Assembly (NCBI GenBank): GCA_000961585.1
Contig: LADN01000023.1
Location: forward strand, 1 to 64,000
DNA: 64,000 nt
Origin: Peptococcaceae bacterium BRH_c4a
GTDB lineage: Bacteria; Bacillota; Desulfotomaculia; Desulfotomaculales; Desulfocucumaceae
Direction of reading: 5' to 3'
Shown: piece after piece, positions 514 through 6,431 of the stretch
Position numbering within the stretch: position 1 is the stretch's first letter
How the letters are laid out: the number at the start of each line of letters is the position of its first letter
Notes under the pieces: generated by a model
What the model was told of the DNA's origin: nothing
Databases searched by the model: none
Seen by the model: only the letters and a program-made list of their open reading frames with translations
Translations under genes and position numbers: made by a program

Positions 514-582
514 ACAACGGATGCCGGCGGCAATATTGTTACGGTCTACAGCGACAATACTGTAAACCGGACGACGGAATAA
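514..582 (+). pseudogene. Possible 3' scrap of a repeat-protein gene
   Basis: A frame ending at 582 reads TDAGGNIVTVYSDNTV shortly before its stop, which resembles YD-repeat (Rhs) protein text. It has no start codon or ribosome binding site. A clearer YD-repeat scrap lies after the cluster at 6258-6431, so both may come from one ancestral gene, but this end is too short to be sure. Confidence 0.25.
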
Positions 583-607: not shown

Positions 608-745
608 ATGGATGTGAGCGCCTTGAAAAACCCAAATGAACAGCCCCAAAAATCATATGAGAAGCCGGAAATTGAAATTACCGAGTTTGAGATCGAGGGA
701 AATATCACCGACAGCAGCCCCGGCGGAGACATAGGAGACTATTGA
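608..745 (+). CDS. RiPP-type precursor peptide candidate (45 aa)
   Basis: A 45-aa peptide starts at ATG 608 behind GGAGAGGAAG at 596-605. A GTG at 605 is an alternative start. The N-terminal half holds YEKPEIEITEFEIEG, a tyrosine-x-x-proline leader motif of the kind bound by PqqD-like proteins. A Thr at residue 34 precedes the tail DSSPGGDIGDY. Leader motif, size and position upstream of kinase-like, PqqD-like, peptidase and exporter genes all fit a ribosomally made, modified peptide. The last five residues, DIGDY, recur at the C-terminus of the S-layer-homology protein next door. There is no lasso cyclase nearby, so the modification is unknown. The core boundaries are inferred. Confidence 0.75.
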   Translation: MDVSALKNPNEQPQKSYEKPEIEITEFEIEGNITDSSPGGDIGDY

Positions 746-753
746 TAAAACCG

Positions 754-787
754 AAACAGGCAGGCGGAACCATCTGCCTGCCTGTTT
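754..787 (+). terminator. Strong hairpin after the precursor gene
   Basis: AAACAGGCAGGC pairs with GCCTGCCTGTTT (12 bp, 10-base loop) 8 bases after the precursor stop and runs into a T tract. Such a hairpin could end most transcripts after the peptide gene or protect its 3' end, so that peptide is made in excess over the proteins downstream. Confidence 0.75.
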
Positions 788-802
788 TACAAGGTGTAAG
801 TT

Positions 803-857
803 AAGGGGACATATCTCTGCTAAGAGGCATTCCTCTATGGCTGAGAAATGTCCCCTT
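803..857. repeat. Long imperfect hairpin of REP type
   Basis: AAGGGGACAT at 803-812 pairs perfectly with ATGTCCCCTT at 848-857. Inside it AGAGG (823-827) pairs with CCTCT (832-836) around a 4-base loop. The stem ends 45 bases before the start of the S-layer-homology gene. GGGGAC-type ends are common in REP or RAYT-mobilised palindromes. It could equally act as an RNA hairpin in the leader. Confidence 0.6.
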
Positions 858-902
858 TTAAATGCAACGACAGATTGTGAAAAGATAATGGAGGGTTTCG
901 AT

Positions 903-1964
903 ATGAGGAGGCAACAGTTTAACCGCATGGCCGTACTGCTTTTGTCAGTGGCGATGTTCTTTGCCGTAACATGCGGCGAAGTGTTTGCCGCAGAACAGGC
1001 AAGCAGTCAGCCTGCCGCTGCCGCATTTGGTGATGTGCGGGAAGACTTCTGGGCAAAACCGGCAATTGATAATTGGAGCAGCAAAGGCATCATTAAAGGC
1101 GATGGAATCAACTTCTACCCCTACGGACAAATCACCCGGGCTGAAATGATGGTGATCCTGGGACGGATTTTCGGCTACAGTAAGACAACTGCAACTCCTT
1201 TTTCCGATGTGAAGAAGGATGACTGGTATTATGACGCTCTGATAAAAGCGTATGCCCGGGGTGTCTTGCAAGGCAGCTTTGATGACAGCGGAAACCGTTT
1301 GGCGCGTCCCAACGATCCGCTGACCCGCGCCGAAGCGGCGGTGCTGTTCTCGAGAATTTTTGCCGTAGAAGGGAGTTCCGGGAGCCATTCAGGCTTTATA
1401 GATACCAACCTGCCCGATTGGGCAAAGGAAGCAATTTTTGGCATGGAAGCGGCAGGCTATATGCATGGCAAGGGAGGCGGCCTGTTCGACCCGTCGGGCA
1501 ACTTGACCCGTGCCGAAGCGGTGCAGATGCTGGACAATATTGTCAAACTATATATTTACCAGCCGGGAAATTACAGCGGGGATGCGGGCGGCAATGTGGT
1601 GGTCAATACTCAGGACGCGGTATTGCAGAATATGAAAATCACAGGAAACCTGTATCTTGCAGAGGGGATCGGCGAAGGAGCCGTCAGCCTTGAGAATGTT
1701 ACAGTTTCAGGAAGCACGTTTTTACGCGGAGGCAGCGCTGATAAAATCAAAATCAGGAACTGCGATTCAGGGAACTGGGTCATTGAAAAGGAAGGTATTG
1801 ATTTAGACAAGCTGCTGACTGATAATACGCCGTGTCCCACACCGACGGGCGATACGGGAAATACAGGCGGTTCGGGCGGGTCAGGTGGCTCAGGTGGTGA
1901 TTCAGGCGGCGGTTCGGACAACGGTAATGAGGAATCTGACGGCGCTGATATCGGCGACTATTGA
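903..1964 (+). CDS. S-layer homology (SLH) protein with precursor-like C-terminus
   Basis: A 353-aa exported protein. ATG 903 is chosen because GGAGGG (890-895) sits 7 bases upstream and a signal peptide follows (MRRQQFNRMAVLLLSVAMFF, cleavage near VFAAE). Three SLH domains follow, at about residues 38-85, 100-155 and 165-215, each with an LTRAE- or ITRAE-type motif. These normally anchor proteins to cell-wall polymers. A beta-type region (about 220-305) and a Gly/Ser linker come next. The tail ends SDGADIGDY, matching the last residues of the 45-aa peptide at 608-745. Three of the five shared codons differ synonymously, which argues for selection on the protein. The protein may display a modified tail at the surface, or be a partner of the peptide; this is inference. 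Confidence 0.85.
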   Translation: MRRQQFNRMAVLLLSVAMFFAVTCGEVFAAEQASSQPAAAAFGDVREDFWAKPAIDNWSSKGIIKGDGINFYPYGQITRAEMMVILGRIFGYSKTTATPFSDVKKDDWYYDALIKAYARGVLQGSFDDSGNRLARPNDPLTRAEAAVLFSRIFAVEGSSGSHSGFIDTNLPDWAKEAIFGMEAAGYMHGKGGGLFDPSGNLTRAEAVQMLDNIVKLYIYQPGNYSGDAGGNVVVNTQDAVLQNMKITGNLYLAEGIGEGAVSLENVTVSGSTFLRGGSADKIKIRNCDSGNWVIEKEGIDLDKLLTDNTPCPTPTGDTGNTGGSGGSGGSGGDSGGGSDNGNEESDGADIGDY

Positions 1965-1980: not shown

Positions 1981-2461
1981 ATGAACCTGTATAAAATAGC
2001 TGATTTAACGGTAGAGCTGGAATGCTCGGGCAAAACCCTGCTGAAACGGGGAAAACCATACCGTACGGATACGGATGGTCCGGCAGACATTACCATACAG
2101 ATCAGCGCTGAGACCCTGAAAAAAGCAGGGGAAAAATTTCCTCAATTAAGTTCTGACGAACTGGAATATATCCAGACAGGCTTTGCGTTTTCCCGCGCTT
2201 TATTAGAGTTTGACGGCTTTTGCCTGCATGCTTCGGCGTTGGCGCTGGACCACAGGGCGGTGCTTTTCTCCGCCCCCTGCGGTGCGGATGTTGATCTATC
2301 AAAGCCTGCGTCCAAACAGCGACAGTAATAAAATGAGCAGGCTCCTGGCTTTGCTGGATGCTCTGCTAAAAAAGACGGCCGTGTACCAGATGGGCTGCAC
2401 CGTCAGCATTGATGCGGTAAAGCTGTCCTATGACACGATAAACAATATCGCGAAGGGGTGA
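1981..2461 (+). pseudogene. HPr-kinase-like gene with internal deletion and frameshift
   Basis: The first frame (ATG 1981, GAGG just upstream) gives an N-terminal region ending LHASAL...LFSAP, exactly where HPr-kinase-like proteins of peptide clusters enter their Walker A loop. The reading then leaves the family and stops at 2328. A second frame resumes at about 2285 with MLIYQSLRPNSDSNKMSRLL and ends at 2461 with a family-like C-terminus. The Walker A motif and the catalytic core are missing, so roughly 150 codons were lost in one deletion near 2276-2290. In paeninodin clusters the intact homologue phosphorylates the peptide. Here it should be inactive. The C-terminal frame overlaps the PqqD start, so the deletion is probably recent. 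Confidence 0.75.
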
Positions 2462-2733
2462 AGAATGGCATGAAAATCAAATCCAGTTATATCATGATAG
2501 AGGTTGCGGGAACCCATGTGGTTGTGCCGACAGGCGAGGCGGCGCTTGATTTCAGCGGCATGATTACCTTAAACGGGACAGGCGTATTTTTATGGAAACA
2601 GCTTGAGCAGGAGAAAACCGAGCGGGAACTGCTTTCCGTTCTGCTGGAGGAATACAAAGTGGATGAGACAGAAGCAAATACGGATATTTCGGAATTCCTT
2701 GCCAAGCTAAAGGCGGCTGATCTGTTTGAATAA
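2458..2733 (+). CDS. PqqD-like peptide-recognition protein
   Basis: A 91-aa protein of PqqD type, the winged-helix RRE fold that binds leader peptides and presents them to modifying enzymes. GTG 2458 overlaps the stop of the broken kinase frame (GTGA), suggesting translational coupling from the ancestral gene. An internal ATG at 2470 is an alternative. Text such as LNGTGVFLWKQLEQ followed by an acidic helical half (LLEEYKVDETEANTDISEFL) matches the family. It is free-standing, like B1 proteins of lasso clusters. Its likely ligand is the YxxP leader of the 45-aa peptide. Confidence 0.85.
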   Translation: MKNGMKIKSSYIMIEVAGTHVVVPTGEAALDFSGMITLNGTGVFLWKQLEQEKTERELLSVLLEEYKVDETEANTDISEFLAKLKAADLFE

Positions 2734-2743
2734 AAGGGTTGCC

Positions 2744-3211
2744 ATGTCGGAGCTTTCCCCGCTGCTGGAGGAAACCCTGCAAAACGGCAGCAAAGTCATT
2801 TTTACGGTGACCGGCAGCAGCATGCTGCCGCTGCTGCACCACCGCAGGGATAAGGTGTGTATCGTGAAACCGCAGGAAAAGCGCTTAAGGAAATATGACC
2901 TTCCCCTCTTTGTCCGCAAGGACGGAAAATACATATTGCACAGGATTATCGCGGTAAAGGCGGACGGCTATGTGGTGGCCGAAGACCATCAGTGCGTAAA
3001 GGAATATCCGGTCCTGCCTTCACAGGTGCTGGGTGTGGTCAAGGGCTTCTGGCGGGACGGGAAATATATATCCTGTGATAACTTCTGGTACCGGTCCTAT
3101 TGCAGACTCTGGGTTTGGGGGTATCCTGTCCGGTGGGCATATCTTCGATGGAAGCAGTTCCTGAGACATATTTTTAACCTCCGAATGGGAGATAAGGAAA
3201 ATGAAGGATAG
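2744..3211 (+). CDS. S24/S26 family (signal-peptidase W-like) peptidase
   Basis: A 155-aa protein with the Ser motif TGSSMLPLL (Ser26) and KYILHRI (His66). In bacterial type I signal peptidases the second residue is Lys; His at this place is typical of the S26B (SipW/archaeal) group. ATG 2744 is preferred; TTG 2726 is possible. Unlike usual signal peptidases there is no clear N-terminal membrane anchor; one hydrophobic, Trp-rich segment lies near the C-terminus (WVWGYPVRWAYL). It overlaps the ABC gene by 11 bases. It may cut the leader from the peptide, taking the place of a lasso B2 protease, but that is inference. Confidence 0.75.
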   Translation: MSELSPLLEETLQNGSKVIFTVTGSSMLPLLHHRRDKVCIVKPQEKRLRKYDLPLFVRKDGKYILHRIIAVKADGYVVAEDHQCVKEYPVLPSQVLGVVKGFWRDGKYISCDNFWYRSYCRLWVWGYPVRWAYLRWKQFLRHIFNLRMGDKENEG

Positions 3212-4898
3212 ACAAACACTTGCATGGCTATATCAAAATTCTAAAACACAGCTCCTCCCTATGATTGCCTTGATTGTGGGATATGGGCTGTTTGCGGGCT
3301 GCGGCGTTCTCTTTGCCCTGGCCAGCCGCGGCGTCATCGACGGTGCCGTTGCCGGGGAAAAGCACATCCTGATGACACAGGGCTTATACTTGTTTTCGGT
3401 GATCGTGTTGCAGCTTGTCTTGCGCATCGCCTGCGGAAAACTTGAAGTCCGGATACAGGGCAGGCTGGAAATGGGCTATAAGACGAAGCTCCTCGGGAAA
3501 ATCCTGCAAAAGGATTATGCGGGCACTACCGGCTATCACAGCGGCGAGCTTTTAAACAGGCTGACCAGCGATATTACCGTGGTCAGCGAGGGCGTCACCA
3601 CCATTCTGCCTAATATTACCGGCTTGCTGACAAAGCTGCTCTCCGCCCTGGCGGTGCTGTGCGTGTTTGACCCTTCCTTTGCCCTGATTTTTGCTATAGG
3701 CGGTTTGCTGTTGTTTTTTACCACCAAGTTTTTCCGGGGAAGGCTCAAGTACCTGCATAAAAACATGCAGGAAAAAGACGGCGTGGTGCGTTCCTTTATA
3801 CAGGAAATACTGGAAAGCATGCTTGTTGTAAAAACATTCGGTGTGGAGCGCGAGATAAATGACAAATCGGCGGGGCTTCAGCAGGAGCATTACAAAGTAA
3901 AGGTCAAAAGGAATACCGTCAGCATCCTGGCAAATTCAGGTTTTTCCTTTGTCTTTTCCATCGGATACCTGTATGCCCTGGTCTGGAGTTCCTTTGGCCT
4001 GATTGCAAAAACCATCAGCTTCGGCACCCTCACCGCCATCCTGCAGCTTGTGGGCCAGGTGCAGTCGCCTTTTGCCGGGCTGTCCGGGCTGCTGCCTAAA
4101 GCGTACGGCATCATTGCCTCGGCAGAACGCATGATGGAGCTTGAGAACCTGCCGGATGAGCTTGAAATCAACAGGCAGGACATGAATCTGTCCGCACTAT
4201 ATAAAGCTATGCAAAGCATAAGGTTTAAAGACGTTTCCTTCCGGTACGACCGGACCATGGTGCTGAACCAAGTCGATTTGACCATAGAAAAAGGCGATTT
4301 TACCGTGATATCCGGTATATCCGGCATCGGTAAAAGCACCCTTATAAAACTGTTGCTGGGAGTATTTGCGCCCACCGGGGGGAGTATAGGCATTCAGCTT
4401 GATGACGGTGAAAGGATACCCGTCGACAGGCATACCAGAAAGCTGTTTGCCTATGTTCCCCAGGAAAATCTGCTCTTATCGGGGACCATCCGGGACAGCA
4501 TTACCTTTGTAAATGCAAACCTAACCGATGAAGAAATCATGGCTGCCGCGCAGGTGAGCTGTGCCGCAGAGTTTATCTCTGCCCTGCCCCGGGGCCTTGA
4601 TACGGTCATCGGAGAAAAGGGGCAGGGCTTATCCGAGGGGCAGGTGCAGCGCCTGGTTATCGCCAGGGCGATTCTAAGCGGCTCGCCCATACTGCTTCTG
4701 GATGAAGCCACCTCTGCTCTGGATGAAGCCACCGAAAAAAGGCTCCTGAATAACATCAGGCGAATGACCAACAAGACCTGCATCATCATCAGCCACAAAA
4801 AAGCGGCGTTCTCTGTGTGCAGCAAAGAAATCCGCATTGAAAATTCCACAATAAAAACCATGAAAAGGAGCAATCGCCATGCGTACCATACAGCCTGA
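3201..4898 (+). CDS. ABC exporter, fused membrane and ATPase domains
   Basis: A 565-aa half-transporter. Residues about 15-310 form an ABC type I transmembrane domain. The nucleotide-binding domain follows, with Walker A GISGIGKST near residue 371, a signature LSEGQ near 476 (second G of LSGGQ replaced by E) and Walker B ILLLDEATSALD near 497. There is no N-terminal C39 peptidase, so leader removal must be done elsewhere, for example by the peptidase upstream. It should work as a homodimer and export the modified peptide. It overlaps genes on both sides, which marks a single operon. Confidence 0.9.
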   Translation: MKDRQTLAWLYQNSKTQLLPMIALIVGYGLFAGCGVLFALASRGVIDGAVAGEKHILMTQGLYLFSVIVLQLVLRIACGKLEVRIQGRLEMGYKTKLLGKILQKDYAGTTGYHSGELLNRLTSDITVVSEGVTTILPNITGLLTKLLSALAVLCVFDPSFALIFAIGGLLLFFTTKFFRGRLKYLHKNMQEKDGVVRSFIQEILESMLVVKTFGVEREINDKSAGLQQEHYKVKVKRNTVSILANSGFSFVFSIGYLYALVWSSFGLIAKTISFGTLTAILQLVGQVQSPFAGLSGLLPKAYGIIASAERMMELENLPDELEINRQDMNLSALYKAMQSIRFKDVSFRYDRTMVLNQVDLTIEKGDFTVISGISGIGKSTLIKLLLGVFAPTGGSIGIQLDDGERIPVDRHTRKLFAYVPQENLLLSGTIRDSITFVNANLTDEEIMAAAQVSCAAEFISALPRGLDTVIGEKGQGLSEGQVQRLVIARAILSGSPILLLDEATSALDEATEKRLLNNIRRMTNKTCIIISHKKAAFSVCSKEIRIENSTIKTMKRSNRHAYHTA

Positions 4899-6069
4899 GA
4901 GAAATTATTTGACCCGCCTGCTGTCCTCCGCCATTGATGGTATGCAGCCGCAGAATCCGCCGGAAAATCTGGATTGGGGAAAGCTGTACGCTCTTGCAAC
5001 CCATCACAGCGTATCTAATATGGCCTGCTATGGTATCGAAAAGCTGGACAGCGCCGGAAAACCCCCGCAAGAGGTGTTGATGAAATTTCAGAGCGACCAG
5101 AAAAAGGCCGTGGCAAAGGAAGCCACCCAGCATATTACAGTGGAGCAGGTCCTGAAAACCTTTGAAGAGAACCGGATTGCCTGCATGCCCTTAAAAGGCT
5201 ATTTGATCAAATACCTGTACCCCAAGCCGGATATGCGGCTGATGGCAGATGTGGATATTTTATTTAAAGACGAACAGACGGAGCAAATGGAAAAGCTGCT
5301 GCTGGGGTTGGGGTTTGTCCTCGAACATAAGGGAGGAAAACATGATAATTATTTCAAGACCCCCTTTATAAAGCTTGAAATGCACCGCATGCTGATGCCG
5401 GAGGATTCCCCATCCAGCGATTATTTCAATAAAGTATGGGACAGGGCCGGATTGAAAGCCGGCTGCCAATATACCTATCAGCTTTCCCATGAGGATTTTT
5501 TTGTCTATATCATGATGCATCTCACGAAACACTATGCGAATGGAGGGACGGGCATCCGCTCCATTATGGATATATGGCTGTACAATACCCGCTATCGGAG
5601 TGAAATGGATTGGGACTACATAGAAACAGAATTGGAGAAAATCAAGCTCCGGGAATTTGCGGAAAACATTCTTGGACTTGGCGAGGTGTGGTTTGGCAAT
5701 GCGGATAGCAATGCGCTCTATGATGAAATGACGGACTTTATATTCTGCAGCGGAGTTTACGGCACCAAAAGAAATGCGGCAGCCTCCTCTATGAATACAT
5801 ATGCGGGTAAAAACATCCCCTTTTGGTTAATGAAACTTAGATATTATCTGAAGCTGTTTTTCCCCGGACCGGAGCATATGAAAATACTGTATCCGTTCCT
5901 TGGCAAACTGTCATTTTTAATGCCGGTTTGCTGGGTGCTCCGGGGGGGCAAATGTTTGCTGTTCAAATGCGAGCACACTTTTCAAGTAATAAATAATGTC
6001 CGCTCGATTTCTGAGAAAGATGTGGTTAGAATACGGAATTTACATGAAAAAGCCGGGCTTTTGAAATAA
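4879..6069 (+). CDS. Nucleotidyltransferase family protein (PF14907-like)
   Basis: A 396-aa protein starting at ATG 4879, 20 bases inside the ABC gene, behind AAAAGGAG. The motif MPLKGYLIKYLYPKPDMRLM followed by ADVDIL (residues about 105-128) is the metal-binding Asp-x-Asp signature of the uncharacterised nucleotidyltransferase family that accompanies paeninodin-type lasso and related peptide clusters. A hydrophobic C-terminal part follows. The substrate is unknown; addition of a nucleotide group to the peptide is a plausible but untested role. It is the last gene of the cluster. Confidence 0.85.
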   Translation: MRTIQPERNYLTRLLSSAIDGMQPQNPPENLDWGKLYALATHHSVSNMACYGIEKLDSAGKPPQEVLMKFQSDQKKAVAKEATQHITVEQVLKTFEENRIACMPLKGYLIKYLYPKPDMRLMADVDILFKDEQTEQMEKLLLGLGFVLEHKGGKHDNYFKTPFIKLEMHRMLMPEDSPSSDYFNKVWDRAGLKAGCQYTYQLSHEDFFVYIMMHLTKHYANGGTGIRSIMDIWLYNTRYRSEMDWDYIETELEKIKLREFAENILGLGEVWFGNADSNALYDEMTDFIFCSGVYGTKRNAAASSMNTYAGKNIPFWLMKLRYYLKLFFPGPEHMKILYPFLGKLSFLMPVCWVLRGGKCLLFKCEHTFQVINNVRSISEKDVVRIRNLHEKAGLLK

Positions 6070-6151
6070 GGAGAAGTTTATAAGATTCCTTTGCGGTTCC
6101 CTTTCAACATCGGTAATTATGGTGTTGGTGTAAATAGCAATCGAATGATGA

Positions 6152-6245
6152 CGCTAAGGACAAACCTGTCAAAAGGCAGGGACGCAAAGCCAAGGGTCTA
6201 AGGTGCCTACCGGTACTATGACAGCCTGCGGAGGGTGCCTGTACC
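6152..6245 (+). ncRNA. Cyclic di-GMP-I (GEMM) riboswitch
   Basis: The conserved GEMM blocks appear in order: GGACAAACC (6158-6166), a CCTGTC-AAAA-GGCAGG hairpin, GGGACGCAAAGCC (about 6179-6191), GGGTCTAAGG (6194-6203), then TATGACAGCC (6218-6225 region) and GGAGGGTGCC. This is the aptamer that binds cyclic di-GMP. No intact gene follows; the next coding text is a YD-repeat fragment, so the switch looks orphaned. Confidence 0.9.
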
Positions 6246-6257
6246 TTAACTTATTAA

Positions 6258-6431
6258 CTTATTCTTAACCAGTGCGCCACCCGTTACAGCTACGACCAGG
6301 CGGAAAGGCTTTTAACCGCCGGAGACACCCGTTACACCTACGACGCCAACGGCGGCCTGACCGGCAAAGCCACACCCGGCCAGACGGCGGACTACCAATA
6401 CGACAGGAATGCGACAGGGAACGGTTCTTGA
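6258..6431 (+). pseudogene. YD-repeat (Rhs-type) gene remnant
   Basis: The frame is open from 6258 to a stop at 6431 and reads RYSYDQAERLLTAG then TRYTYDANGGLTGK and DYQYDRNATGN. These are consecutive YD repeats of Rhs/wall-associated proteins. There is no start codon or ribosome binding site, and only about 55 codons survive. It directly follows the cyclic di-GMP riboswitch, so a large surface protein was probably once controlled by that switch, though deletion may have joined them. Confidence 0.8.

Follow-up and report, generated by a model that had tools for sequence, protein, structure and literature searches.

Judged from its gene content, the locus at the start of the window (the whole stretch of 64,000 nucleotides analysed here) is a RiPP cluster of the linear polyphosphorylated peptide (LPP) type that also encodes a wall-anchored companion, an S-layer-homology (SLH) protein that constitutes an addition to this just-described RiPP family. 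Precursor peptide and companion end in the same residues, and the comparison of homologous clusters indicates that this tail match is real; it was clear in two of the seven clusters and is not universal, since pairing was partial or absent in the others. As a tentative explanation, which we favour with less than even confidence, the tail of the companion and the mature peptide may share a surface recognition motif. The features of the locus are collected in Table 1.

Table 1. Features at the beginning of the window, numbered from its first letter.
Feature	Position	Strand	Remarks
Partial ORF, transposase-N-terminus-like by eye	2–415 (region 1–480)	−	At contig end
C-terminal remnant of upstream surface protein	about 517–582	+	TDAGGNIVTVYSDNTVNRTTE; matches the end, DSNNNMVTVYSDNTVNRTMGGE, of a 1108-aa protein in L020
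LPP-type precursor peptide (lppA-like)	608–745	+	45 aa, ATG at 608, stop at 745; YEKPEIE leader, conserved Ser, acidic core ending in DIGDY
SLH companion	903–1964	+	353 aa, ATG at 903, stop at 1964; export signal (by eye), three SLH domains, beta domain, Gly/Ser/Asp linker, C-terminal hexapeptide ADIGDY
DIGDY-stop of SLH companion	1947–1964	+	Counterpart in peptide at 728–745
HprK-like kinase (lppK-like), pseudogene	1981–2461	+	P-loop region deleted, frame broken
PqqD-type RRE (lppB-like)	2470–2733	+	PF05402, E 3.3e-17; profile matches LppB structure 9x8z
SipW/S26-like leader peptidase (lppS-like)	2744–3211	+	Ser, His, and Asp conserved
MsbA-like ABC exporter (lppD-like)	3201–4898	+	Pfam, NCBIfam
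NTP_transf_5 nucleotidyltransferase (lppN-like)	4879–6069	+	PF14907, E 5.1e-63
c-di-GMP-I riboswitch	6149–6242	+	Just 3' of the NTase gene; Rfam RF01051, 55.9 bits
Apparent short fragment of a YD/RHS-repeat gene	about 6280–6420		After the riboswitch; not an intact gene

LPP clusters were described by Popov et al. (Nat Commun 2026; PMC13381572) from the lpp locus of Paenibacillus alginolyticus, in which lppA is followed by K (HprK-like), B (PqqD/RRE), S (SipW-like), D (ABC), and N (NTase), with no lasso cyclase. In that system, the YxxP leader is bound by LppB and cut by LppS (Ser, His, and Asp), and Ser3 of the core is polyphosphorylated by LppK (PMC13381572); in pseudomycoidin, hexoses are attached to the phosphorylated Ser by PsmN, a homologue of the NTase (PMC9266682). 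The core LPP genes (SpI-like peptidase, discrete RRE, HprK-like kinase, NTP transferase, and MsbA-like exporter) were all present in the window, the kinase as a pseudogene. Pfam recognised three SLH stretches in the companion (E 1.6e-23) and confirmed the SLH domains and the PqqD-like, exporter, and NTase genes downstream that an earlier note on this DNA had named. The peptidase claimed there received sub-threshold matches to the S24/signal-peptidase family in Pfam and NCBIfam; the gene was, in turn, conserved in the homologous clusters, and Ser32, His72, and Asp87 were invariant in five homologues aligned to the motif. Absent from that note were the broken kinase gene, located between the SLH and PqqD genes, and the remnant of the upstream surface protein.

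All the precursors presented YEKPEI, in agreement with the leader motif YxxPx[VLI], and a Ser was found 18–19 residues after the leader Tyr in the SLH-bearing clusters (18 in LppA). The full LPP consensus YxxPxVLxHQxIxFETxxS was not matched, as other residues stand in place of HQ and FET (YEKPEIEITEFEIE...), and these clusters would therefore represent a divergent LPP branch at most. In profile comparisons bearing on whether the RRE belongs to the LPP or the lasso clade, it matched LppB (9x8z, E 6.5e-4), the lasso protein TbiB1 (E 9.5e-6), and also PbaB1. In sequence searches against Pfam, NCBIfam, and PDB, the peptide could not be assigned to any named family, and the kinase had no family match that passed the cut-off. 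Assignment to a lasso peptide cluster was rejected, as neither a macrolactam cyclase (C) nor a B2 protease appeared among the cluster genes in the ORF listing or in the Pfam analysis of the window genes. Regarding the companion, the text of the LPP paper makes no mention of S-layer or surface proteins (PMC13381572), and none of the papers searched was found to link S-layer proteins with PqqD/RiPP or HprK.

Homologous clusters were sought by searching genomes with the peptide and the SLH protein (1,625 genome searches, repeats included) and by scanning genome contigs with the peptide alignment, which yielded four loci, including that of Herbivorax; a contig scan with the NTase alone yielded no matches. 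In the SLH protein searches, cluster-type proteins showed E-values below 1e-36, and all others 1e-28 or weaker. Eight further clusters of the same subtype were obtained. Five of them showed an intact SLH gene between the peptide and kinase genes (L018, equal to L030, from Desulfotomaculaceae; L020; L033, from Herbivorax; L083; and L084), one carried an SLH pseudogene (L019), and two, from a single genome, had lost the gene (L021 and L022). Including the window, the SLH gene was found at the same position in six intact clusters and one pseudogene, from two orders. Cluster L022 is complete; in L021 (genome G030), the place 3' of the S26-like peptidase where the exporter and the NTase would be expected is occupied by two small genes similar to those of a prevent-host-death antitoxin and a RelE-type toxin. 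A second branch of peptides (L023–L028) lacked the SLH gene and presented cores mostly ending in GDE[FLV]GWG[DE]I-type sequences, such as GDEFGWGDIR. Two kinds of candidates were discarded: a DIGEY-like match on contig 37, which belongs to no reading frame ending there, and the other SLH-associated beta domains found in more than 1,200 genomes, which were generic parts of different, mostly larger proteins.

Of the 16 peptide loci, 13 are preceded by a long open frame whose stop codon was located from −38 to +7 bases from the peptide start, often overlapping it, a proximity that suggests translational coupling of the peptide and the upstream surface protein. This frame, often longer than 1000 codons, encoded in the cases examined a large secreted protein with repeats, which in L020 includes InlB B-repeat, cadherin-like, and CBM_X2 domains, and it occurred with or without the SLH gene (L018, L019, L020, L021, L022, L024, L026, L027, L028, L033, L083, and L084). 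This large protein is intact directly before the peptide gene in the relatives; in the window genome, its gene seems to have been cut by the transposase-like ORF, for which Pfam gave no match. The window kinase aligned with an intact homologue only along query residues 1–106 and 180–236, in two different frames, with residues 107–179 missing; the kinase was intact in L018, L019, L020, L022, L033, L083, and L084, and no second HprK copy of the same family was found in the window assembly. With a kinase deprived of its P-loop region and a truncated gene for the upstream surface protein, the LPP pathway therefore looks partly decayed in the window genome; alternatively, the break in the kinase may be an assembly error.

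Concerning the tails, the window peptide ends in SSPGGDIGDY and the companion in ESDGADIGDY, in both cases directly before TGA, and the identity of the last five residues reported previously was reproduced in the ORFs and their translations. DIGDY was the sole C-terminal 5-mer common to any two of the 421 window ORFs of at least 40 aa, and the chance of sharing it was about 9e-7 per ORF pair on residue composition alone. The exact DIGDY-stop codon pattern was present at two sites genome-wide, the window peptide and the window SLH gene, and DI[GV]DY-stop with exact codons was detected among 11 genomes in these clusters only. The codons, GAC ATA GGA GAC TAT in the peptide and GAT ATC GGC GAC TAT in the companion, differ by three synonymous changes, as had been observed before. 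The selection at protein level deduced from them in the earlier note is weakly argued in this way, because there are only three changes and 19 of the 24 bases of the last seven codons plus stop are still identical. Constraint on the protein is better supported by the fact that the SLH tail is conserved from genome to genome: its consensus, [AG][DE][IM][GVI]D[YL], extends over two orders (Desulfotomaculales and Herbivorax-type), with a mean identity of 68% in the last six residues versus 13–17% in each preceding 6-residue block of the linker. In the predicted structure, this tail ends a low-confidence linker that is probably disordered. The cores of the peptides vary among clusters.

The DNA identity just mentioned, together with 16 identical bases of 18 in the matching stretch of L020, would be expected if the tails had become alike without any function, through local copying of a short stretch or through gene conversion involving the two neighbouring genes. 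We consider this improbable, given that the codon differences in both DIGDY and GGEIID (the string shared in L020) are all synonymous, and that the SLH tail motif is kept between orders and thus was not newly acquired.

Alignment of the tails across the homologous clusters, the check put forward along with the original observation, gave a mixed outcome (Table 2).

Table 2. C-terminal tails of peptide and SLH protein in the seven true pairs.
Cluster	Peptide tail	SLH tail	Pairing
Window	SSPGGDIGDY	SDGADIGDY	good
L018	SSMIGDDY	SDGADIVDL	poor
L020	SGGEIIDG	LDGGEIIDY	good
L019	PPGGPIGGY	LNGGNITTY (pseudogene)	partial
L033	PSGMEGIDLD	AQSADMVDY	poor
L083	PSGMDGIDLN	PDSADIVDY	poor
L084	STPDMVDVP	EERADIVDY	partial

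Two short acidic ends rich in Gly, Ile, and Asp could match by chance. It is conceivable, and to be taken seriously even if we incline against it, that conservation of the SLH tail has a separate cause, such as recognition of the free C-terminus by a surface protease or an assembly factor, and that the match in two clusters is coincidental. The SLH tails are indeed conserved regardless of the peptide sequence, a long string common to both tails is absent from five of the seven clusters, and the cores of SLH-less clusters scored against SLH tails similarly to the unpaired cores of SLH-bearing clusters. In addition, the Herbivorax-type clusters (n = 3) showed no pairing (4 of 6 permutations). 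The distribution of the matches speaks against coincidence: exact matches of 5–6 residues occurred in two of the seven true pairs (window and L020) versus at most four residues in 119 unpaired comparisons, and when all 49 matches were ranked by length, the top two belonged to true pairs (P 0.018). Moreover, the paired similarity exceeded that obtained on re-pairing (32 of 5040 permutations, P = 0.006; 22 of 720 without the L019 pseudogene) and that of shuffled tails (0 of 2000); these probabilities are approximate because the pairs are related by descent. Also against coincidence, the string GGEIID common to the peptide and the SLH protein of L020 is an unusual variant of the SLH motif.

The earlier note had further imagined that the same machinery may modify both peptide and SLH tail, or that a modified tail is displayed by the surface protein. 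The common C-terminal residues and the location of the SLH gene between precursor and kinase would fit a scheme in which the LPP enzymes act on both ends and the surface protein shows the modified one. However, LPP modification takes place on a Ser after an RRE-bound YxxP leader (PMC13381572), and in the companion, a [YW]xxPx motif appears only inside SLH domain 1, around 300 residues away from the tail, and is missing in L083. The SLH tail has no conserved Ser either, and the protein carries an N-terminal export signal, as judged from the sequence and from the N-terminal helix of the model. For these reasons, shared modification of peptide and SLH tail by the LPP enzymes appears unlikely, and we give the complete scheme, modified tail on display included, very little credit. 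What stands is the presentation of a core-like tail at the wall, which is the best reading of the data, with the tail probably unmodified.

As enzymatic modification of the tail is unlikely, the shared recognition motif is the explanation that we favour, with the chance likeness of separately constrained ends as its main rival. By analogy with the tested LPP system (PMC13381572), the RRE would bind the leader, the kinase, broken in the window, would phosphorylate the conserved Ser near the start of the core, and the peptidase and the exporter would remove the leader and secrete the product, respectively. The window companion has three SLH domains with wall-polysaccharide-binding TRAE motifs in addition to the export signal judged by eye, and its SLH fold matches the wall-polysaccharide-bound structures 3pyw and 7sv6; therefore, the companion should be fixed to the wall polysaccharide through these domains, with its C-terminus exposed. 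This unmodified end could then serve as a short motif by which a surface partner is recognised, and the same partner would bind the mature peptide as well; the large repeat protein is a candidate partner solely because its gene lies directly upstream. The tails would resemble each other as a consequence of this shared partner, and may have converged to identity in some lineages. A broader proposal, which we regard as rather doubtful, is that certain RiPP operons include the gene of a wall-anchored protein whose free C-terminus is a genetically encoded mimic of the core on permanent display, so that secreted peptide and wall-bound mimic would compete or cooperate at one surface receptor, with their tails coevolving.

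A role of LPPs in biofilms has been raised by their discoverers as speculation only (PMC13381572). In the anaerobes studied here, the wall-anchored companion with its core-like tail, and the surface repeat protein with a stop codon adjoining the start of the precursor, provide a concrete clue that the product acts at the cell surface of its own producer.

Compared with the LPP system (PMC13381572), the present clusters have the same gene order, with HprK-like, RRE, SipW-like peptidase, MsbA-like exporter, and NTP transferase genes and without a cyclase, and their precursors also show a YxxPx leader, a Ser at nearly the same distance, and a variable core. In contrast, they carry an SLH gene between precursor and kinase and a large repeat protein directly upstream, their core has around 10–15 residues instead of 45, and their leader lacks the HQxIxFET part; furthermore, they belong to Desulfotomaculales and Herbivorax-type clostridia, and the kinase is broken in the window genome. 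Lasso peptides of the paeninodin/pseudomycoidin type share with them the HprK-like kinase, the PqqD-type B1, the NTase, the ABC exporter, and the [YW]xxP leader, but the present clusters have a SipW-like peptidase in place of the macrolactam cyclase and the transglutaminase-type B2 protease, both of which they lack. Finally, the companion resembles SLH S-layer proteins such as Sap of B. anthracis and SpaA of Paenibacillus in its three SLH domains with TRAE motifs, and differs from them in that it is small, ends in a flexible linker with a conserved hexapeptide, and is encoded inside a RiPP operon.
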